7,499 nt of DNA. Origin: Candidatus Desantisbacteria bacterium CG1_02_38_46 (GTDB taxonomy: Bacteria; Desantisbacteria; UBA1551; UBA1559). Where the stretch lies: NCBI GenBank assembly GCA_001871015.1, contig MNUO01000031.1, positions 1 to 7,499 of the forward strand. The letters are read 5' to 3'. A program made the position numbers and the translations under genes. Below the pieces are notes generated by a model. That model saw nothing but the letters and a program-made list of their open reading frames with translations, searched no databases and had not been told where the DNA came from. Below are positions 1 through 7,499 of this stretch, in pieces. Each line of letters opens with the position of its first letter. The stretch's first letter is position 1.

Positions 1-797
1 CCTGCAAAACGCTGTCTTCCCACTGCATCTATCTCATCCATAAAAATCAACGCCGGCGCTGTTTTCTTTGCCTGCTCAAACAAATCACGGACGCGACTTG
101 CACCAACACCTACGAACATCTCCACGAAATCAGAACCACTTATACTGAAAAAAGGAACATTTGCTTCCCCTGCAACAGCTTTTGCAAGCAGAGTTTTGCC
201 ACAACCCGGCGGACCAAGTAAGAGCACTCCTTTTGGAATTTTACCTCCTAGCCTTGAAAATTTCCCCGGGTCCTTTAAAAATTCAATAACCTCCTGTAAC
301 TCTTCTTTTGCTTCGTCAACACCTGCTACATCATTAAATGTAATTTTTGGTTGGTCCGGAGTTTGCAATTTTGCCTTACTCTTGCCAAAAGAAAATGCCC
401 GTTCAGCAGGACCACGCATCTGTCTCATGATAAACCACCAGAATCCAACAAACAACAGTAGCGGAAAAACCCATGTGAAAAATCCACTAAGCCATTTAGA
501 TGGCATCTGGACCTTGAATTCCACATTGTGTGCCCGTAGTGTCTTAATTAAGTCCGGATCTTCAATTGCAAATGTGACAAAGGAAATAGGTTTGCCAGAT
601 TCGTCTTTAATTTCCCCTTTGATAGTGTTCTCGCTGATTATAATTTTAGTGATCTTTCCTTGTTCCACATTGGTAAGAAAAGAACTATAACTAATTTCTT
701 TTACCGGCGAAGAAGATTTGATATTATTGAGGAGAATTATCAGTAACAGTGCAAAAAATAACCAGATGACCAAGCCTCTTGCTCTACTTTTTTTCAT
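1..797 (-). CDS. ftsH: ATP-dependent zinc metalloprotease FtsH, N-terminal part (cut by window start)
   Basis: FtsH is the membrane-anchored hexameric AAA+ protease that degrades misassembled membrane proteins and short-lived regulators. Translating the minus strand from the ATG at 797 gives 265 residues before the window ends. Visible in order: a first membrane segment (about 9-24), a periplasmic region with the FtsH extracellular pattern (SYSSFL at 36-41), a second membrane segment (about 108-124), a linker, then the AAA+ start ([14 protein letters not shown] at 154-167). Walker A is GPPGCGKT (195-202), with Cys where FtsH usually has Thr. The pore loop is FVGVG (228-232) and Walker B is LIFMDEID (250-257). 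The second region of homology and the HExxH protease site lie outside the window. A Shine-Dalgarno AGGAG (803-807) sits 5 bases before the ATG. The gene follows tilS in the same direction, the common tilS-ftsH order, here without the hpt gene often found between them. The identity is certain. Confidence 0.97.
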
Positions 798-811
798 ATT
801 CACTCCTATTT

Positions 812-969
812 GTAGTGGCAGAGTTTACTCTGCTAGTAGTGGTAAAGTTTACTCTGCTATTTTGTAGTGGCAGAGTTTACTCTGCTATTTTGTAGTGGCA
901 GAGTTTACTCTGCTATTTTGTAGTGGTAGAGTTTACTCTGCCATTTTGTAGTGGTAAAGTTTACTCTGC
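812..969. repeat. Palindromic repeat array A, 6 copies, between tilS and ftsH
   Basis: Six copies of a 22-base unit begin at 812, 836, 864, 892, 920 and 948. Each starts GTAGTGG or a variant and carries the near-palindrome GCAGAGTTTACTCTGC, which has 7-base arms around a TT centre. The last four steps are 28 bases (6-base spacer TATTTT, or CATTTT once); the first step is 24 bases (2-base spacer TA). The right arm ACTCTGC is unchanged in all six copies. The left arm varies by transitions: GGCAGAGT, GGTAGAGT or GGTAAAGT. The array fills most of the 191-base spacer, ending 14 bases before the ftsH start and 19 bases after the tilS stop. Function is unknown; a folded mRNA element, a mobile palindrome or a protein-binding array are all possible. 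Confidence 0.95.
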
Positions 970-988
970 CATTAGACACTTGATTTGC

Positions 989-2362
989 TCAGGTTTTTCT
1001 AAATATTTCAACTTTCAAAATCTTTTTAGTCCCCTGCGTAACTTTTGCCTCTTCGCTCACCCGATAACCCACAATCCAGATGATTTTTTGCTCAGGAAGC
1101 TGGACTGTTTTCACTCTGGTAATGAGCAGTGGAATCTTTTCTCTCATTTCCCGTGGCACCTTATGGTCAATAAAAAAATCCGATAGTTTCTTTCTTCCAC
1201 TGGCACCCTGTGGGTAAAAATAGTCTCCAATTTTTCTCGTCCTCACAAATAGAGAAAGCCCCACCTTATCTGCATCAAAATAAGCAGTATCATGAGTTGC
1301 ACGATAGGAATGTAACGGTTTATTGTGGTTCAAAATTGTCTTTTTGATTGTGTATTGCCCGGCTTGCTGCAGAGTAATTTTTCCTTTTCGAATGCAAAGA
1401 TTTTCATATTCTTTCTGAGCAATTATTTCCCCTGGTAAATCCAATCTTGAACCTGAAGGTTTCTCATTAATTAAATTCAGTAAATCTTCAATATGCCCAA
1501 AACCCAATTGCAACAAGTCACCCTTGGCTCGGTGAATCGCCTCCCGCAATATCCTGGGTTTAAGAGCGGACGGCACATTTCTAAATTCCTTTATCAGGAG
1601 CATTACATTCCTATCTTTTCCTCTTCTCAAAATGCGAGGCACATACCTTTGCGCTTGAGATTCAAGGTAAAGGTCTTCTTCCTGCAAAATCAAACTTGTG
1701 CGGAAAAGTGTTTCTTTTATATTGGGGTTATAATCCTTGGCAAGTTGTGGTAACAACTCAAGCCGGAGTTTATTGCGCTGGAATACCGGCTCTAAATTTG
1801 AAGAATCCAAACAATAGTCTAATTTGTTTTCCTTTAGATAGGAGAGAATTTCTTCTTTTGAACATTCAATCAAGGGATGAATGTACTTATCATGAACAGG
1901 CAACATCCCTCCAAGTCCTGTATGTCCGCTTCCCCTGAACAAATTCAAAAGAAGCGTTTCAGCCTGGTCATCAAGAGTATGCCCCAGAGCAATTTTGTTG
2001 GCGCCTACTTTTGTAGCAGTCTCATTTAAAAAAGCGTAGCGAACCTCGCGTGCACCTGCTTCAGGTGAAACTTTCTTTTCTTTTATGAAATCCGGCACAT
2101 TTTCGTGTTTAATAAATAGCGGTAAACCAATCCTGTTTGCCAGGTCTCTGACAAAACGCACATCCTTCTCGGCTTCAACAGGGCGAATCATATGGTTGAG
2201 ATGAGCAATATAAAAAGACGTGCCAAATTCACTCTGCAGAGATGTAAGAATATATGCAAGTGTTACTGAATCTGGACCGCCGGAAACACCGATAACAACC
2301 TTATCTTCCTTCCCCAGCATATTGTATTTCTTAATTGTTTTTAAAACCTTTTCTCTCAGCAT
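989..2362 (-). CDS. tilS: tRNA(Ile)-lysidine synthetase TilS
   Basis: TilS uses ATP and lysine to convert C34 of tRNA-Ile(CAU) to lysidine, which switches its decoding from AUG to AUA and its charging from Met to Ile. The 457-residue protein is full length for the two-domain class. The N-terminal PP-loop ATPase motif SGGPDS is at 27-32, followed by HLNH (54-57) and HTLDDQAET (128-136). The C-terminal domain (about 360-455) shows the usual VRTRKIGDYFYP and GRKKLSDFFIDHKVP stretches and an IIWIVGYR strand. The ATG at 2362 gives the expected distance to the P-loop, but no clear Shine-Dalgarno precedes it, because the palindrome array begins 13 bases upstream. It lies between a tRNA gene with a CAU anticodon and ftsH, all in one direction, so all three may share transcripts. 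No frameshift or missing motif is seen. Confidence 0.97.
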   Translation of the reverse strand: MLREKVLKTIKKYNMLGKEDKVVIGVSGGPDSVTLAYILTSLQSEFGTSFYIAHLNHMIRPVEAEKDVRFVRDLANRIGLPLFIKHENVPDFIKEKKVSPEAGAREVRYAFLNETATKVGANKIALGHTLDDQAETLLLNLFRGSGHTGLGGMLPVHDKYIHPLIECSKEEILSYLKENKLDYCLDSSNLEPVFQRNKLRLELLPQLAKDYNPNIKETLFRTSLILQEEDLYLESQAQRYVPRILRRGKDRNVMLLIKEFRNVPSALKPRILREAIHRAKGDLLQLGFGHIEDLLNLINEKPSGSRLDLPGEIIAQKEYENLCIRKGKITLQQAGQYTIKKTILNHNKPLHSYRATHDTAYFDADKVGLSLFVRTRKIGDYFYPQGASGRKKLSDFFIDHKVPREMREKIPLLITRVKTVQLPEQKIIWIVGYRVSEEAKVTQGTKKILKVEIFRKT

Positions 2363-2375
2363 ATTTTATTTGTAT

Positions 2376-2501
2376 GTAGTGGCAGAGTTTACTCTGCTGG
2401 TAGTGATAGAGTTTACTCTGCTATTTTGTAGTGGCAGAGTTTACTCTGCTATTTTGTAGTGGCAGAGTTTACTCTGCTGGTAGTGATAGAGTTTACTCTG
2501 T
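2376..2501. repeat. Palindromic repeat array B, 5 copies, between tRNA-Met and tilS
   Basis: Five copies of the same 22-base unit as the array before ftsH, in the same orientation, begin at 2376, 2400, 2428, 2456 and 2480. Spacers are TATTTT (28-base step) or TG (24-base step). Two copies have the altered left arm GATAGAGT. The right arm ACTCTGC is intact except that the last copy ends in T instead of C. The array starts 13 bases before the tilS start codon and ends 4 bases from the encoded CCA end of the tRNA, so it occupies nearly the whole spacer. In minus-strand transcripts it would form a row of small hairpins just after the tRNA. Confidence 0.95.
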
Positions 2502-2505
2502 AAAA

Positions 2506-2582
2506 TGGTAGCGGCGGACCGATTCGAACGGTCGACACTACGGGTATGAGCCGTATGCTCTAACCAACTGAGCTACGCCGCC
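2506..2582 (-). tRNA. tRNA-Met (anticodon CAU), probably elongator
   Basis: The minus strand folds into a full 77-base tRNA. The acceptor stem is GGCGGCG with CGCCGCT (G1-U72 is a wobble). The D stem is GCTC/GAGC, the anticodon stem TACGG/CCGTA with loop CTCATAC, the variable loop GTGTC, and the T arm GACCG-TTCGAAT-CGGTC. The discriminator is A and CCA is encoded. The anticodon is CAU, used by initiator Met, elongator Met and the TilS substrate tRNA-Ile2. The TACGG..CATACCCGTA arm and the GGCGGYG/CGCCGCT acceptor match what I recall of Firmicutes elongator tRNA-Met. It lacks the initiator features of an unpaired 1-72 and three G-C pairs next to the anticodon loop. Elongator Met is favoured; tRNA-Ile2 is not fully excluded. 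No convincing promoter is visible directly upstream. Confidence 0.95.
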
Positions 2583-2614
2583 ACGGTTATATCGAACTTA
2601 CACTAACGCTTAGT

Positions 2615-2649
2615 CCCCACCTGCTTCGTTTCGAAGAAACGAGGTGGGG
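2615..2649. repeat. GC-rich intergenic hairpin upstream of tRNA-Met
   Basis: The arms CCCCACCT (2615-2622) and AGGTGGGG (2642-2649) enclose a second pair CGTTTC (2627-2632) and GAAACG (2636-2641). This gives 14 paired bases with a 4-base bulge and a 3-base loop. No T-run follows on either strand, so it is not a standard terminator. It stands out from the AT-rich 267-base spacer between the toxin gene and the tRNA, which otherwise holds only the palindrome GCAAAATTTTGC at 2713-2724 and no gene I can support. It could be a dispersed palindromic element or a processed leader structure of the tRNA transcript. Confidence 0.75.
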
Positions 2650-2849
2650 TCGGAAATTTTGAAATCCTGATTGCAAAACAAGACTAAAACTCTATGTTTT
2701 GAAACCACTTATGCAAAATTTTGCTATGCGACACAAATTCATAATAAAAAATAATAGCCTGTTTTGAAATTTGAGATTTAAAAAAGCATTACTTCTTCAC
2801 TAAGAATTGGACAAAGTATCCATTGCTTTGTTAAATTAGAAAGCAGTCT

Positions 2850-3074
2850 TTATTTCAATAGATTTATGAATTCATCCACACTCAGACCTGCGTGTCGAAT
2901 AATGGCTCTCAATGTACCTCTGTCCAGTACTTTGTGGTCTGGGACAACAACTTGAGCAAAAGGTTCGTCGCGACGTAGGATTAGATGACTACCGGCTTGT
3001 CGCTTTAAGTAAAAGTTTGCTCGCTTAAGTGTTTGGGTGCATTCGCGCCCCGAAATCACCGGCAACTTACTCAT
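2850..3074 (-). CDS. hicA: HicA-like toxin (mRNA interferase)
   Basis: This 74-residue protein fits the HicA/YcfA family, small proteins with a double-stranded-RNA-binding-like fold that cleave mRNA when freed from their antitoxin. It starts SKLPVISGRE, has the family pattern FYLKRQAGSHLILRR with the presumed catalytic histidine at 30, and continues with VVVPDHKVLDRGTLRAIIR and a final helix (LSVDEFINLL). Length is normal for the family. The start ATG overlaps the stop of the upstream hicB-like gene by 4 bases, so the two are translationally coupled. The order is antitoxin first, toxin second. No damage is visible. The call rests on recognised family motifs; toxicity is inferred. Confidence 0.9.
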   Translation of the reverse strand: MSKLPVISGRECTQTLKRANFYLKRQAGSHLILRRDEPFAQVVVPDHKVLDRGTLRAIIRHAGLSVDEFINLLK

Positions 3075-3277
3075 ACTACCACCGTTAGAACCTCAAACCG
3101 TTCCTCAGGAACAGATAACCCATCTTCTTTGAGCACAGTAATGTATCCTTCAATAGCTTCGCGAATGTTTTGAATAGCTTCCTCTTTGGTTTTACCTTGA
3201 CTTATACAGCCAGGCAATGTAGGACACTCAACCACCCAGTAACCATCCTCACCAGGATATATTATTACCTCTCGCAT
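3071..3277 (-). CDS. hicB: HicB-like antitoxin, short form
   Basis: This 68-residue protein has the HicB N-terminal partial RNase H fold: a beta strand EVIIYPGEDGYWVVECPTLP, the typical GCISQGKTKEEAIQNI segment, and a helix EAIEGYITVL. HicB proteins neutralise HicA by covering its active site. Many also carry a C-terminal ribbon-helix-helix or HTH domain that represses the operon. None is present here, as the protein ends after FEVLTVVV. A strong Shine-Dalgarno GGGAGG lies 7 bases before the ATG. The gene overlaps the end of the upstream 76-residue gene by 13 bases and the start of hicA by 4. If this short HicB does not bind DNA, another factor would have to autoregulate the locus. Confidence 0.88.
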   Translation of the reverse strand: MREVIIYPGEDGYWVVECPTLPGCISQGKTKEEAIQNIREAIEGYITVLKEDGLSVPEERFEVLTVVV

Positions 3278-3495
3278 TGTTCATCCTCCCTTTCAAAATA
3301 TTTCATTTTATTGTTATGTTCTACATATTTTGTTTCAAGTCCATAAGCAATTAAATGCTGGACTATGCCGCAGACGAGTTCGACAATCGCCACGACATTT
3401 TTCCCTTTTGAATCGGGAAGAAGTTTCTGCAAACTTCGTTCTATCTCTTCGGCTTTGCTCTTATGCCCTTCAGCGTTCATATAATATTCTTCCAT
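3265..3495 (-). CDS. Unrecognised 76-residue protein leading the hicBA locus
   Basis: I do not recognise this protein with confidence. It is a small, charged, largely helical protein: an N-terminal amphipathic helix (KSKAEEIERSLQKLL), then VVAIVELVCGIVQHLIAYGLETKY, and a very polar tail ending EDEQCER. The second helix, with a central His and a following EHN, vaguely recalls small HEPN-type proteins, but no catalytic RxxxxH pattern is complete. It overlaps the hicB-like gene by 13 bases and shares its promoter, so it is probably part of the same unit. The start is uncertain. The ATG at 3495 has no Shine-Dalgarno; the ATG at 3480 has a weak GGAAG 8 bases upstream and would give 71 residues. 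The tail could be a truncation. Confidence 0.7.
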   Translation of the reverse strand: MEEYYMNAEGHKSKAEEIERSLQKLLPDSKGKNVVAIVELVCGIVQHLIAYGLETKYVEHNNKMKYFEREDEQCER

Positions 3496-3517
3496 TCAGA
3501 AATTTAAGATAGTATAT

Positions 3518-3546
3518 AGTATATCAAATAATCTAATAAATGTCAA
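3518..3546 (-). promoter_or_regulatory. Sigma70-type promoter of the HicBA-type locus
   Basis: On the minus strand a perfect -35 box TTGACA (3546-3541) is followed after 17 bases by TATACT (3523-3518). Transcription would start near 3511, about 16 bases before the first ATG of the 76-residue gene. The -10 box sits in a direct repeat of TAGTATA (plus strand), which could be an operator for autoregulation. The promoter lies just after the terminator of the upstream operon, so the toxin locus looks transcriptionally independent. Confidence 0.8.
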
Positions 3547-3567
3547 GAAAACGCAAAAATCTGCTGG

Positions 3568-3600
3568 AAAAAATAAAAAACCGCCGGTAGATTGGCGGCT
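3568..3600 (-). terminator. Rho-independent terminator of the exporter operon
   Basis: On the minus strand the stem AGCCGCC and GGCGGTT (one G-U pair) encloses the loop AATCTACC. It is followed at once by a tail of 12 T in 13 bases (3580-3568). It lies 118 bases after the MFS stop codon and 22 bases before the toxin-locus -35 box, which closes the exporter operon cleanly. Confidence 0.9.
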
Positions 3601-3666
3601 AATTACAATCAAAAATTCATCAATAAATGATACTCTAATTGCCCGAAGAAGTTACTTAGAAACAAG

Positions 3667-3693
3667 CCTGCCCGCCAATGTGGTAGTGGCAGG
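3667..3693. repeat. Small GC-rich inverted repeat after the MFS gene
   Basis: The arms CCTGCC (3667-3672) and GGCAGG (3688-3693) enclose a smaller CCA..TGG pair. It lies in the 117-base stretch between the MFS stop and the terminator. It has no T-tail. It contains GTAGTGGCAG, the first 10 bases of the palindrome unit found around tilS, but not the rest. It is probably a short intergenic palindrome of unknown role. Confidence 0.45.
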
Positions 3694-3717
3694 TGGTACA
3701 TTTTCGGGAGGCAGATG

Positions 3718-4878
3718 CTAATTGTTCTGCATAGAAGTTATAACTCTGGTTGCCATAAAACCGACTATAAACATTATTAAAGAAGCGGAAATAAAAATCA
3801 TACCAATTCCCCATTTATTCAAAATATATCCATTTAAAAATGTTCCTATTCCACCACCCACAAACATATTAAAAGAAGCTAACGACATAACTGTACCTCT
3901 TAATTTGGGCATAAGTTGCTGGGCAGTTGTCACCAGAGTTGATTGAAAGAAAACAAACGCCAATCCAAATCCAAATAAGGAGACAGAAATTAAAAACGGA
4001 GAATGCCAGAACGATAGGGTTGCCAGAGATGCCCCGCCCAAAACACCAGCCAGCAGAAGAAACCTGTTTCCCATCTTTTGTCTCATTGTGCCAGCTTTTC
4101 TCCCGCCAATTACACTTGCTATGCCAAAGAAAGTTAAAAGCAGCCCGACTATCAGGATATTATAACCCGTTCTGATTTGAATAAACTTACCAGAATAAGT
4201 AAAACTCCCGAAAACACAATAGCCCACAAAGAAGATGATGCTCACTACCTTGAGCAAATCTTTGTTTGCAAAGGCTTGACCGTATACTCTGCCGAAGTTC
4301 AAACTTCCAACAACTCCCGGTCTTTTCTCAAGCATTTTTAACATCATTATTGCAATAATAAGCTCAGCGATTCCGTAAACCAAATATACTAACCGCCAGG
4401 AACCTAAATATGACAATATTCCTCCAATTGCTGTAGCAGATGCCCCGCCCAACATCATCAAACCCATTACTTTCCCTATTGCATTCTGTCTGGATGAATC
4501 GTCAAAACTTTCTCCAATCAGTGCCATTGTAACAGGCAGGATGCCGGCAGCAAAAGCGCCATTTATTCCACGAATGACACAGAGGGATGTAATATCAAAA
4601 GCGGCTGCTCCTAAACAACTAAAAATTGCTGTTCCAAAAGCGGCTATATTAATCACCTTGGTTTTGCCATACCTGTCGCCCAGAGGGCCAAACAATAAAG
4701 TAAACAGCCCAAAAGGTAACATATAAGCGGTGACTGAAAAAGCGGCTCTGCTAATATCTAAATGAAAATCCCTGGCTATATTTAAAAGCAAGGGGGCGGC
4801 AGCGTAATTGTCTCCGTTGCACCAAAAAACCAGAATCCCAAGCAACAAAACCATTTGATTCAAACGATTAGAATTCAT
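3718..4878 (-). CDS. MFS transporter (probable exporter)
   Basis: This is a major facilitator superfamily protein of 386 residues with about 12 hydrophobic helices, the normal size for the family. The hallmark motif A lies between helices 2 and 3 (GPLGDRYGKTK at 64-74). Helix 4 has RGINGAFAAG (103-112), resembling the proton-coupling motif B of drug-type exporters. The substrate cannot be read from sequence, and it does not resemble the arsenite carriers ArsB or Acr3. It is the last gene of a unit that starts with an ArsR-type regulator and a Cys-rich protein, so a metal, metalloid or thiol-conjugate exporter is a reasonable inference. The ATG at 4878 is chosen because GGAGG (4884-4888) lies 5 bases upstream; an in-frame TTG at 4890 would place the Shine-Dalgarno inside the gene. 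A terminator follows 118 bases downstream. Confidence 0.92.
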   Translation of the reverse strand: MNSNRLNQMVLLLGILVFWCNGDNYAAAPLLLNIARDFHLDISRAAFSVTAYMLPFGLFTLLFGPLGDRYGKTKVINIAAFGTAIFSCLGAAAFDITSLCVIRGINGAFAAGILPVTMALIGESFDDSSRQNAIGKVMGLMMLGGASATAIGGILSYLGSWRLVYLVYGIAELIIAIMMLKMLEKRPGVVGSLNFGRVYGQAFANKDLLKVVSIIFFVGYCVFGSFTYSGKFIQIRTGYNILIVGLLLTFFGIASVIGGRKAGTMRQKMGNRFLLLAGVLGGASLATLSFWHSPFLISVSLFGFGLAFVFFQSTLVTTAQQLMPKLRGTVMSLASFNMFVGGGIGTFLNGYILNKWGIGMIFISASLIMFIVGFMATRVITSMQNN

Positions 4879-4900
4879 TTTTACCTCCAAAATTGCTTCA

Positions 4901-4936
4901 GGGCGGAGGGGAATTTAAAAATCCCCCGCCCGCCCC
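4901..4936. repeat. GC-rich imperfect hairpin between the Cys-rich gene and the MFS gene
   Basis: GGGCGGAGGGGAATTT (4901-4916) faces AAATCCCC followed by CGCCCGCCC (4919-4935), with a few bulged bases. It fills most of the 66-base gap between the small protein gene and the MFS gene. No T-run follows, and the MFS ribosome site begins 13 bases downstream on the minus strand. It may set relative expression by partial attenuation or protect the mRNA from decay. It could equally be a dispersed palindrome. Confidence 0.65.
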
Positions 4937-4944
4937 ATTTCCGC

Positions 4945-5148
4945 CTATTCACTTTTAGTTCCTTTAAGATGTTCTTCCACGGCGGCAAGTTCCTTTTTAA
5001 GCTGGTCCTTGTATTTTTCTAGCTGTTCCTGTTCTTCTTTGGCAGATACAAAACGCCGCAGGAAAGGTCCACACCCGCACCCACAACGGCCAGAAGTATG
5101 ACCCCCGTGCCCAAAACCTCTTTCGTTCCCACCTGGTTCGCAGCACAT
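4945..5148 (-). CDS. Small Cys/His-rich protein with coiled-coil tail
   Basis: This is a 67-residue protein I cannot assign to a named family. The N-terminal third is a flexible Gly/Cys/His region: Cys 2 and 3, HGGH at 14-17, and CGCGC at 22-26. After a short PFLRRF linker comes a heptad-like helix (about 36-62: EEQEQLEKYKDQLKKELAAV). This suggests a cytoplasmic soft-metal ligand held by a coiled coil. The CxCGC plus coiled-coil segment (22-63) aligns without gaps to residues 90-131 of the ArsR-type regulator encoded just upstream, with 15 identities in 42 positions including KYK. The start at 5148 is chosen for the Shine-Dalgarno GGAGGTGA 5 bases before the ATG; the in-frame GTG at 5157 lies within that site. 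A perfect inverted repeat upstream is the likely operator, and the MFS gene follows. It might be a metallochaperone for the exporter or a modulator of the regulator. Confidence 0.85.
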   Translation of the reverse strand: MCCEPGGNERGFGHGGHTSGRCGCGCGPFLRRFVSAKEEQEQLEKYKDQLKKELAAVEEHLKGTKSE

Positions 5149-5171
5149 TTTTATCACCTCCCTTGGTCCAA

Positions 5172-5199
5172 TAGTTTAAGTAGTTGTTAAACTACTTAA
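5172..5199. promoter_or_regulatory. Probable ArsR-type operator
   Basis: The perfect inverted repeat TTAAGTAGTT (5176-5185) and AACTACTTAA (5190-5199) has a 4-base centre. A second overlapping dyad is TAGTTTAA (5172-5179) and TTAAACTA (5187-5194). It lies in the 67-base gap after the regulator gene, 24 bases before the ATG of the Cys-rich protein and just upstream of its Shine-Dalgarno. Such long AT-rich dyads are typical of winged-helix dimer repressors. Position and symmetry suggest that the neighbouring ArsR-type protein binds here to control the small protein and the MFS gene. Confidence 0.75.
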
Positions 5200-5215
5200 T
5201 TAAATTCTAAAAAAA

Positions 5216-5632
5216 TTATTTGGTATTTTTACCCTTTATTTCCGAGATTCTCTTTTCAACATCCCCCAATTCCATTTCTAATTCTTTCTTGTATTTTGTA
5301 AGAGACACCAGACTTAATTTTTTCTGGTTTTCAAATCTGCATGTCCCCTTACATCCGCACCTGCAAATTTCATTTACTATAAGTCGGCAATCCTCCATTG
5401 CCCCCCCGTCTATTGAATACGGTATCCAGTATCCCTTTCGTGCGCTACTGACAAGGCCGGCCTGCTTTAGCACCTTTAAATGTTGCGATACTGCAGCGGG
5501 GGTTATCCCAAGTGCTTCAGCGATATTTTTCGCGCCCAATGACCCCCTTGATTTTAAAAGTTCAATTATTTTAATCCGTGTCTCTACAGACAACACCTTA
5601 AATATTTCTGAAGAATCCAATCTTACTTTCAT
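5216..5632 (-). CDS. ArsR-family repressor with extra Cys cluster and coiled-coil tail
   Basis: This is a 138-residue winged-helix regulator. The HTH is clear: TRIKIIELL (18-26), KNIAEALGITPAAVSQHLKVLKQAGLV (35-61) and the wing ARKGYWIPYSI (64-74). Most ArsR/SmtB repressors are dimers that leave DNA when metal or another effector binds. The classical ELCVC metal site in the helix before the recognition helix is absent (GAKNIAEALG here). Instead cysteines cluster after the wing, at 82, 90, 92, 94 and 98 (CRCGCKGTC), followed by a charged helix (about 104-133). This tail makes the protein longer than a minimal ArsR domain and is copied in the small protein encoded next. The effector is inferred to bind these cysteines. 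The Shine-Dalgarno GGAG is 13 bases before the ATG, which is long, and a half-site-like TAAACTA lies between them, hinting at autorepression. It follows the DsrE gene by 39 bases. Confidence 0.93.
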   Translation of the reverse strand: MKVRLDSSEIFKVLSVETRIKIIELLKSRGSLGAKNIAEALGITPAAVSQHLKVLKQAGLVSSARKGYWIPYSIDGGAMEDCRLIVNEICRCGCKGTCRFENQKKLSLVSLTKYKKELEMELGDVEKRISEIKGKNTK

Positions 5633-5671
5633 ATTTTTAGTTTATCTCCGATTTTTTTTGAATAAAAATTT

Positions 5672-5992
5672 TCAGAAAGTTACCACCTTGTCGCTTTCTT
5701 TTACAATCTCATAAAAATCTTTCATTGTGTTTATTGTACACATTTCGGTTCCTTCCTGGTTCCGGGATTTAATACATGTTCCACAGACTAATATTTTACC
5801 ACCGGATTGCAGAAATTTATCCGCCTGCTCAATCGTGTTGAATTTTTCCGTGCTTATTGACTGATACTCAACACCTTTGCCCATAAGGAAAACCTTAACT
5901 TCATCTTTCTGTCCAAGGCAAAAATTTGCATACCGCAATGCATTCCAGCATGTTTCAGCATCATTGCTTGAAATAACAACTCCTATTTTCAT
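5672..5992 (-). CDS. DsrE-family sulfur-carrier-like protein
   Basis: This is a 106-residue protein of the DsrE/DsrEF-like fold, small cytoplasmic proteins that carry or relay sulfane sulfur on a conserved cysteine. Visible features are the opening strand MKIGVVISSNDAETCWNALR, strand VKVFLMGKGV (32-41), the helix region EQADKFLQSGG, and the family's redox or persulfide motif VCGTCIKSR with Cys 70 and 73. Other cysteines are at 15, 25 and 85. The start at 5992 is chosen because AGAGG lies 6 bases upstream and the strand fits the family start. An upstream in-frame start at 6109 would add 39 residues with no family character. It lies 131 bases after the methyltransferase-type gene and 39 bases before the ArsR-type gene. 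This points to reactive sulfur or thiol chemistry in the cassette, by inference. Confidence 0.9.
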   Translation of the reverse strand: MKIGVVISSNDAETCWNALRYANFCLGQKDEVKVFLMGKGVEYQSISTEKFNTIEQADKFLQSGGKILVCGTCIKSRNQEGTEMCTINTMKDFYEIVKESDKVVTF

Positions 5993-6123
5993 ATTGAGCC
6001 TCTTTTGATTAAGTATTTTAATAATGATTTTCGCACTTGTCGGCAAAGATTGAAAAAGGCCATCGCTTGTGTAGAACGAAAATATGAGTTCTTGAAAACG
6101 CAAACCCAATCAAAATAAAACCT

Positions 6124-7269
6124 CTAAATAGCCGGTGTCGGCACATCACCCCAGGCCGTTGCCTTCTCAACTTCTTTCATGTTTATTATTTCGCCCGTCT
6201 GTACATTTATGTCAATGAACCCGACGGGTTTTCTTACAATATTAAAAGAAAGCGACGCTTTTCCTGATACGCGTTTGTTATGATTGTCTTCTATTTGTAT
6301 AAATACGATCCTCCGATAAGGACAGTCTTTGCAATCCATATATTCCCGATCAATTCCGATAGGGCAGTGATGCCTTCTTGCCATTACCGGATCTACGTTA
6401 TGCATTTTTGCCATATGTAAGGCAGGGGATGCCCTTAAATGACTAAAGGGATGAAATACCCATTCGCTTATCATCGCCAGTGTGTGGTTTTTTTTATATA
6501 AATGAAAATCGCTGCCGGTATTTGCTATCATACCCTGCATTATATAATCCGCCGGCATCAAATAACCCAAGTAATATTTCCCTTCCTGGATAAAACTTAT
6601 TTTACTATATGCAGTATTTGAAATACCATCGAGTGATTTTATACAATCCTCATTATCTTCAGGAAGGATAGAAACAAGGGTAATGTTATCCCGGGCATCA
6701 AAATGAAGCTGGTTAAGAGTAATTGTCCTTAGAATAAAACCAATGCCTATTGTCACCGTTACGGCAATCAACGGGATCAAGAGATATTTAACCTTGGTAT
6801 CAGGGATTAGTTTCGTAAAAGATTTTTCAATAAATTTTGGAAAGAACATACCTGTTTTGTCCATGTAGGGTGCGTACGTTTCCCCATATTGTCGAAGCAT
6901 TCTTCTTTCCTCATCTTTTGCAAGAAAATAATAAAGGATAAACATAAGGGATAACGAGGCAAGGACTAAGAATCTCGGCCACAGGATGGCCATTCCAATA
7001 CCCCATATTCCAAGAGCCAGATACTGGGGATGACGGATATATGAGTATAGTCCTTTGATGGCTACCCCCCGGCGGAATATTTTATTCAAATAAACATGGG
7101 AAGCACAGATTAAAAAGGCCAGAGCGCCAACTATAAATAACATTGAACCTGATATGCGGATTGCTTTCAAAAACAATGTTGGAGGCAAAATCATATGGGG
7201 CAAGAAAAACGCTGTCAGCCATCTTGTTATGGTATACTGGTCAAACCATCTAAATATAGGATTAAACAC
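6124..7269 (-). CDS. PEMT/ICMT-type membrane methyltransferase with unrecognised Cys/His C-terminal domain
   Basis: This is a 381-residue fusion. Residues about 35-142 match the integral-membrane methyltransferases of the phospholipid N-methyltransferase and isoprenylcysteine carboxyl methyltransferase group: GLYSYIRHPQYLALGIWGIG (73-92), two further helices, then KDEERRMLRQYGETYAPYM with the SAM-site Glu pair at 120-121. A membrane helix at about 161-185 leads to roughly 195 residues I do not recognise. These include VFHPFSH (271-277) and a cluster with His 300-301, Cys 302, 313 and 316 (CKDCPYRR), which could bind metal or heme. The substrate is unknown. The start is weak: GTG at 7269 is the first start after an in-frame stop, has no Shine-Dalgarno, and overlaps the end of a 23-codon reading frame. 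Insertion-sequence DNA lies just upstream, so the original N-terminus or promoter may have been replaced. It probably leads the DsrE/ArsR genes. Confidence 0.85.
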   Translation of the reverse strand: MFNPIFRWFDQYTITRWLTAFFLPHMILPPTLFLKAIRISGSMLFIVGALAFLICASHVYLNKIFRRGVAIKGLYSYIRHPQYLALGIWGIGMAILWPRFLVLASLSLMFILYYFLAKDEERRMLRQYGETYAPYMDKTGMFFPKFIEKSFTKLIPDTKVKYLLIPLIAVTVTIGIGFILRTITLNQLHFDARDNITLVSILPEDNEDCIKSLDGISNTAYSKISFIQEGKYYLGYLMPADYIMQGMIANTGSDFHLYKKNHTLAMISEWVFHPFSHLRASPALHMAKMHNVDPVMARRHHCPIGIDREYMDCKDCPYRRIVFIQIEDNHNKRVSGKASLSFNIVRKPVGFIDINVQTGEIINMKEVEKATAWGDVPTPAI

Positions 7270-7333
7270 TGAATAGAAGAAAAATGGAAATTATAAAGGA
7301 AATTTCACCCTTTTCTGTTAATTGAATTTTCAC
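7262..7333 (-). CDS. Possible 23-codon leader peptide
   Basis: A reading frame starts at GTG 7333, directly after the purine-rich, Shine-Dalgarno-like AAAGGGAGAGG, and encodes KIQLTEKGEISFIISIFLLFSV, with a hydrophobic second half. Its stop overlaps the GTG start of the methyltransferase gene by 8 bases (AGTGTTTAA), an arrangement that would allow translational coupling to a gene lacking its own ribosome site. It may also be an artefact of insertion-sequence end DNA, or the detached N-terminus of a frameshifted gene. Low confidence. Confidence 0.25.
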   Translation of the reverse strand: MKIQLTEKGEISFIISIFLLFSV

Positions 7334-7358
7334 CCCTCTCCCTTTACTTCTCCTTTAG

Positions 7359-7386
7359 ATTATACACCTTTTTGCCTTTTTGTCAA
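7359..7386 (-). promoter_or_regulatory. Outward sigma70-type promoter at the insertion-sequence end
   Basis: On the minus strand, TTGACA (7386-7381) and TATAAT (7364-7359) are both perfect consensus boxes, 16 bases apart. The -35 box overlaps the stop codon of the istB-like gene. Transcription would start near 7352 and run into the methyltransferase-DsrE-ArsR genes. Some IS21-family elements are known to carry outward -35 boxes at an end; here both boxes appear to lie in element-linked DNA. Confidence 0.8.
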
Positions 7387-7499
7387 TTTTCTTCTTTTGA
7401 TTCCTGCTTTTTTTCTTTCTTCTTTTCCTCCTTTCCCAGCCTGCTTTGAAGCCTGTAGCTTTTCCCTGTGATGTTAATAATGATAGAATGATGCACAAG
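7383..7499 (-). CDS. istB: IstB-like ATP-binding helper of IS21 transposition, C-terminal 38 residues
   Basis: IstB is the AAA+ ATPase that assists the IstA transposase of IS21-family elements. The minus-strand frame entering from the window edge begins LVHHSIIINITGKSYRL, which matches the conserved IstB ending (a dimer of His, a short strand, then GxSYRLK). A lysine/glutamate-rich tail of about 17 residues (KEEKKKEKKQESKEEN) runs to a TGA at 7385-7383. The Walker motifs lie outside the window. The stop codon is embedded in a TTGACA box that belongs to the outward promoter. The family call is good despite the short piece, because the SYRL ending is characteristic. Confidence 0.8.
   Translation of the reverse strand, partial: LVHHSIIINITGKSYRLQSRLGKEEKKKEKKQESKEEN

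Follow-up and report, generated by a model that had tools for sequence, protein, structure and literature searches.

Head-to-tail arrays on both sides of tilS in a Candidatus Desantisbacteria genome are very probably clusters of GTAG-tagged REP elements

Two arrays of a 22-nt palindromic unit flank the tilS gene on contig MNUO01000031.1 of Candidatus Desantisbacteria bacterium CG1_02_38_46 (assembly GCA_001871015.1). We analyzed positions 1 to 7,499 of this contig, forward strand, hereafter the window. We are highly confident that the arrays are clusters of GTAG-tagged repetitive extragenic palindromes (REPs), small non-autonomous hairpin units putatively recognized by a REP-associated tyrosine transposase (RAYT, or TnpA-REP) through the GTAG tag and the stem. 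The arrays, their unit and the block they share are as follows.

812..969, + strand: array 1, six head-to-tail REP units of 22 nt each, with steps of 24, 28, 28, 28 and 28 nt, between ftsH and tilS
2376..2501, + strand: array 2, five head-to-tail REP units, with steps of 24, 28, 28 and 24 nt, between tilS and tRNA-Met
812..833, + strand: reference unit, GTAG-TG-GCAGAGT-TT-ACTCTGC (GTAG tag, dinucleotide, 7-bp stem, 2-nt loop)
811..914, + strand: shared block, copy in array 1, 104 bp, about 97% identical to 2375-2478 (differences counted by eye in an ungapped alignment)
2375..2478, + strand: shared block, copy in array 2

A first-pass annotation of the window had described eleven copies of one sequence, in one orientation, at 24- or 28-base steps on both sides of tilS. 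Eleven units do occur at these steps, starting at 812, 836, 864, 892, 920 and 948 in array 1 and at 2376, 2400, 2428, 2456 and 2480 in array 2, but the exact 16-mer core, GCAGAGTTTACTCTGC, is present in only six of them, the other five carrying one to three changes. Matches to the core number 18 on both strands of the window, against a mean of 0.04 in 200 shuffled sequences.

The source genome is a metagenome-assembled genome (MAG), a 1.73-Mb draft in 133 contigs estimated at 88% completeness. Exact cores occur 95 times in it, on more than 40 contigs, whereas the reversed pattern does not occur at all, bearing out the annotation's suggestion of a genome-wide REP-like family. An assembly error that duplicated one spacer, which the annotation had named as a possible source of the repeat, was rejected as unlikely: the more than 40 contigs that carry related units differ in the sequence flanking them. 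Genome-wide analyses of the units covered 774 kb, drawn as stretches from each contig that carries at least one exact core. This sequence holds 217 units of the same plan, as opposed to 3 in a reversed-sequence control, and 190 of the 217 open with GTAGTG. Because the set of 217 was selected for pairing (5 of 6), we also counted all GTAGTG sites without such selection: a 6-bp hairpin directly follows 177 of 420 sites, compared with 0 to 3 for four scrambled tags.

Changes within the stem are compensatory, alternating between C-G and T-A at pair 2, A-T and C-G at pair 3, and T-A and C-G at pair 7, and pair counts exceed partner-shuffled means at all seven stem positions. Since the innermost pair is compensatory, the TTTA and CTTG middles of the units represent T-A and C-G closing pairs. 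Two main stem types could be distinguished, type A (GCAGAG, GCAGAC) and type B (GTCGAG, GGCGAG). Most placed units (124 of 192) fall outside open reading frames (ORFs) of at least 110 amino acids, even though these ORFs take up 88% of the sequence. The ORFs were called crudely, with starts set as early as possible, and the share of units within genes is therefore overstated; some units are truly inside genes. The strict intergenic placement raised by the annotation thus gives way to roughly two thirds by this crude count, with some units in frame within genes. Collectively, an unpaired GTAG beside a short palindrome, dispersed copies, a location mostly outside genes and a compensatory stem are the defining features of GTAG-tagged REPs as published (PMC3733652, PMC2817692, PMC8266576).

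The repeat also extends well beyond this genome. Among the matches listed, the exact 21-mer TAGTGGCAGAGTTTACTCTGC is found in MAGs named Elusimicrobia, WOR-3/Stahlbacteria, Zixibacteria, Ratteibacteria, Planctomycetota and Brocadiaceae, and the 20 repeat-bearing genomes that we checked contain from 1 to 73 copies of the 22-mer. The 16-mer core was absent from all 58 comparison genomes, which are related to the window's genome, in almost every case distantly. The annotation had proposed a search for a RAYT, and this proved to be the right thing to seek. The presence of Y1 transposases in 20 of 20 repeat-bearing genomes says little by itself; a small RAYT clade (profile A1, E<1e-40) gives strong matches in 14 of these 20 and in 1 of the 58 comparison genomes (Fisher 5e-10), although the profiles were built from RAYTs of some of the repeat-bearing genomes (four of the 20 for A1, a larger number for A2) and favor those somewhat. 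As relatedness inflates co-occurrence, we made the comparison within phyla as well. The clade is present in 5/5 repeat-bearing Elusimicrobiota versus 9/289 others, and in 4/8 repeat-bearing WOR-3 genomes versus 5/139.

Many members of the clade are bordered by GTAG units of the same plan, in which the dinucleotide and the stem vary between subclades. The sole comparison genome with a strong match, G001, is also the sole one in the window's order, and its RAYT sits between two GTAGCT-GCAGGG-CTTG-CCCTGC units. Those nearest to the window unit are GCAAAG-TTTA units on both sides of a RAYT at locus L263 and, in L290, a GCAGAG-TTTA unit that lies 29 nt beyond the RAYT. One clade member scores above the NCBIfam REP_Tyr_transpos cut-off. 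In a tree of 36 RAYTs, phyla are mixed on supported branches, the pattern expected if these genes have moved by horizontal transfer; a tblastn search on plasmids with a RAYT returned distant transposases only, at no more than 34% identity.

Several observations weigh against a REP/RAYT origin of the window arrays. A RAYT of this clade, even as a fragment, was not found in the window's own assembly (88% complete), so that the search proposed by the annotation yielded no cognate enzyme there; the arrangement called a REPtron, a RAYT flanked by the same REPs, was encountered elsewhere with related units, and no RAYT was found between copies of the exact window unit. A strong RAYT match is lacking in six of the 20 repeat-bearing genomes, and the number of such genomes listed is itself a lower bound. 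The selection of the 217 units for pairing also belongs here. Transposase genes of the window's own genome were considered as the cognate RAYT and rejected. The Y1 transposases on contigs 60 and 109 have no GTAG units within 600 bp, and the latter protein has a DnaA-like C-terminus; a fragment at the end of contig 53 lies approximately 350 bp from one unit but falls outside the clade. The contig 60 gene (L116:8460-9200) encodes a Y1 transposase with a stop in frame and is bordered by an inverted AAAAAGGGGACG motif (GGGGACG, by eye), resembling the transposases flanked by terminal inverted repeats (TIRYT) of PMC3733652.

The genes around the arrays, given as context, are as follows.

3..803, - strand: ftsH, N-terminal part, running off the contig (start at 797/803)
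989..2362, - strand: tilS (tRNA-Ile lysidine synthetase), flanked by the two arrays (TIGR02432 at 170 bits, over the cut-off; PF01171, PF11734)
2506..2582, - strand: tRNA-Met (cat)

On the minus strand the order is tRNA-Met, array 2, tilS, array 1 and ftsH, with array 2 lying between tRNA-Met and the tilS start (2362) and array 1 between the tilS end (989) and the ftsH start (797/803). Farther along the window we noted a hicA/hicB-like toxin-antitoxin pair (2850-3277, minus strand; PF07927, PF15919) and a DsrE-like protein beside an ArsR-type regulator (5216-6001). The arrays could serve the tRNA-Met/tilS/ftsH region in cis, as RNA elements or regulatory ones, with the palindrome selected for a role as 3'-end stabilizer, attenuator or protein-binding site. 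Their placement between co-directional genes would suit such a role, as would the strong folding of array 1 on both strands (z -12.1 and -5.8), and transcription and a role in RNA have been proposed for REPs of other bacteria (PMC3733652). We nevertheless consider this explanation improbable, given that the units lie at dozens of unrelated sites on both strands, some of them in frame in genes, and recur in other phyla, and that nothing links the family to tilS or ftsH elsewhere. An intrinsic terminator was rejected, as the array hairpins are not followed by a T-run in the direction of the transcripts (judged from the sequence, with no terminator scan).

Focusing on how neighboring units are arranged, we observed two distinct patterns. 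Inverted neighbors join a type A to a type B unit in 43 of 44 pairs, while head-to-tail neighbors share a type in 48 of 53. The types were defined after looking and pairs within one cluster are not independent, so that a p value computed for this contrast is not to be read literally. Twenty-six inverted pairs with GTAG outside, the arrangement of REP doublets forming hairpins (REPINs) and bacterial interspersed mosaic elements (BIMEs), occur elsewhere in the genome; the window arrays, being head-to-tail, lack it. Some interiors of inverted pairs (among them CCAAT, AGAAAA and AATTTA) are identical across different contigs. Head-to-tail linkers include TCCAAT, which is common to different contigs, but most of the longer ones are private to one locus. 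In the window arrays TATTTT produces the 28-nt step and TA or TG the 24-nt step, as the annotation had noted; one 28-nt step has CATTTT instead. Its proposal of a choice of linker is less satisfactory than duplication, since TATTTT is confined within the 774 kb to the window's two arrays and the unit and its adjacent spacer were therefore probably duplicated together locally. Array length may be inaccurate in a draft assembly.

Other contigs provide similar cases. The linker TTGAGGAA occurs only in two contig 35 arrays 2.3 kb apart, one at L125:5208 and the other, at L125:7507-7618, comprising four REP units with a 30-nt step, in frame within a 709-aa ORF. A seven-unit array with a 24-nt step on contig 18 (L138:4877-5042) contains several repeats of the stem-breaking variant TTTATTCTGC, as expected if a mutated unit was duplicated locally. 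On contig 120 (L119:7711-7981), a longer repeat, GTAGTGGCCAAAAGTAGCCGACTGTAGGCACTCTGGAAGTGCAGAG, is interleaved with REP units. We take these patterns to mean that the dispersing form is the inverted pair and that arrays expand in place, at times seeding a nearby spacer.

Tandem growth by slippage alone, unconnected with any transposase, would fit the confinement of most linkers to one array or to two neighboring ones, and the contig 18 array made up mostly of a mutated unit. It accounts for the length of arrays but not for dispersal: beside single units there are inverted heterodimers whose interiors are the same from contig to contig, the GTAG tag and the compensatory stems have been preserved, and the identical 22-mer recurs in several phyla. 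We regard slippage as the whole explanation as very improbable. A CRISPR-like (clustered regularly interspaced short palindromic repeats) or other spacer-holding array, already discounted by the annotation, would share the palindromic direct repeats and regular steps, but with repeated linkers of 2-6 nt and hence no unique spacers its likelihood is negligible, and we rejected it.

Returning to GTAG-tagged REPs, a plausible history of the window begins with a RAYT of this clade, which would have spread single units and REPINs, the GTAGTGGCAGAGTTTACTCTGC strand being its putative substrate. Arrays would then have grown in place by tandem duplication of unit plus spacer, through slippage or through repeated single-strand cleavage and joining, and part of one window array may have been copied into the neighboring spacer 1.5 kb away. 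The mobilizing RAYT may since have been lost, or the incomplete assembly may not include it. If the arrays influence the expression of tilS or ftsH at all, this would be a side effect.

The RAYT genes themselves contain REP units. An internal GTAG hairpin is present in 17 of 43 RAYT ORFs, compared with 0.2 expected from synonymous shuffling, and in-frame units were noted in the genes at L260, L261, L262, L265, L266, L267-L271, L277, L300, L302 and L322. Typically there is a sense unit near codon 40, reading VVAELAL or VVAQFIE, or a unit in antisense that lies between HuH and the catalytic tyrosine and reads AKQALPLQ or similar, or both; in L277 the antisense unit is tandemly repeated in frame. 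Some genes (L260, L265, L277, L266) have internal stems that equal those of their flanking units. REPs inside such genes had already been described for subclass 2.4 (PMC6006769), which lowers any claim of novelty for them. A RAYT gene carrying an inverted REP pair at fixed coding positions, with stems that change along with the surrounding REPs, could act as a template or reservoir that renews the REPs of a genome and carries the same REPs between phyla on transfer, a proposal that we offer tentatively and think rather unlikely. If it were true, what would be new is that the sense unit is fixed, that its position is length-neutral and that the stems match.

Comparison with described systems places the repeat among ordinary REPs. 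Like the 24 GTAG-tagged families of Di Nocera et al. 2013 (PMC3733652), it has a terminal GTAG, a short perfect stem with compensatory variants and a 2-nt TY-type loop, and its many copies occur as singles, dimers and clusters, some of them in frame in genes. It differs from most of those families in that head-to-tail arrays are common here and rare there, and it comes mostly from uncultured phyla. It is apparently a new GTAG REP sequence family of an ordinary kind, whose arrangement is instructive and whose exact repeat spans several phyla. The inverted pairs of the genome resemble REPINs and BIMEs (Bertels and Rainey 2011, PMC3116915; the Y and Z units of E. coli) in having two types with GTAG outside, sometimes in tandem, whereas the window arrays have a single type in a single orientation. 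The Marinomonas REPtron Mb (PMC8266576) likewise has a perfect, short palindrome whose middle is 4 nt long, and two bases separate its GTAG from the stem, but that stem is 5 bp, its RAYT belongs to group 3 and its REPs are concentrated near the RAYT gene.

The related RAYTs appear to resemble group 4, or subclass 2.4, TnpA-REP proteins (Quentin et al. 2018, PMC6006769) in their patchy spread over phyla, in-frame REPs between the HuH motif and the tyrosine and lack of a C-terminal extension. Several of them depart from the subclass in adding a sense unit upstream of HuH, at a fixed codon and with little change in length, and the window's own assembly departs from it in yielding no such RAYT gene.

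Our results extend the REP/RAYT system to phyla known mainly from metagenomes, and document clearly a single 22-nt REP that recurs unchanged across phyla together with a RAYT clade. As far as can be judged from sequence, they suggest two separate processes, in which inverted heterodimers with conserved interiors disperse and one-type arrays with private linkers grow locally. RAYT genes with built-in REPs make the spread and origin of REPs testable.
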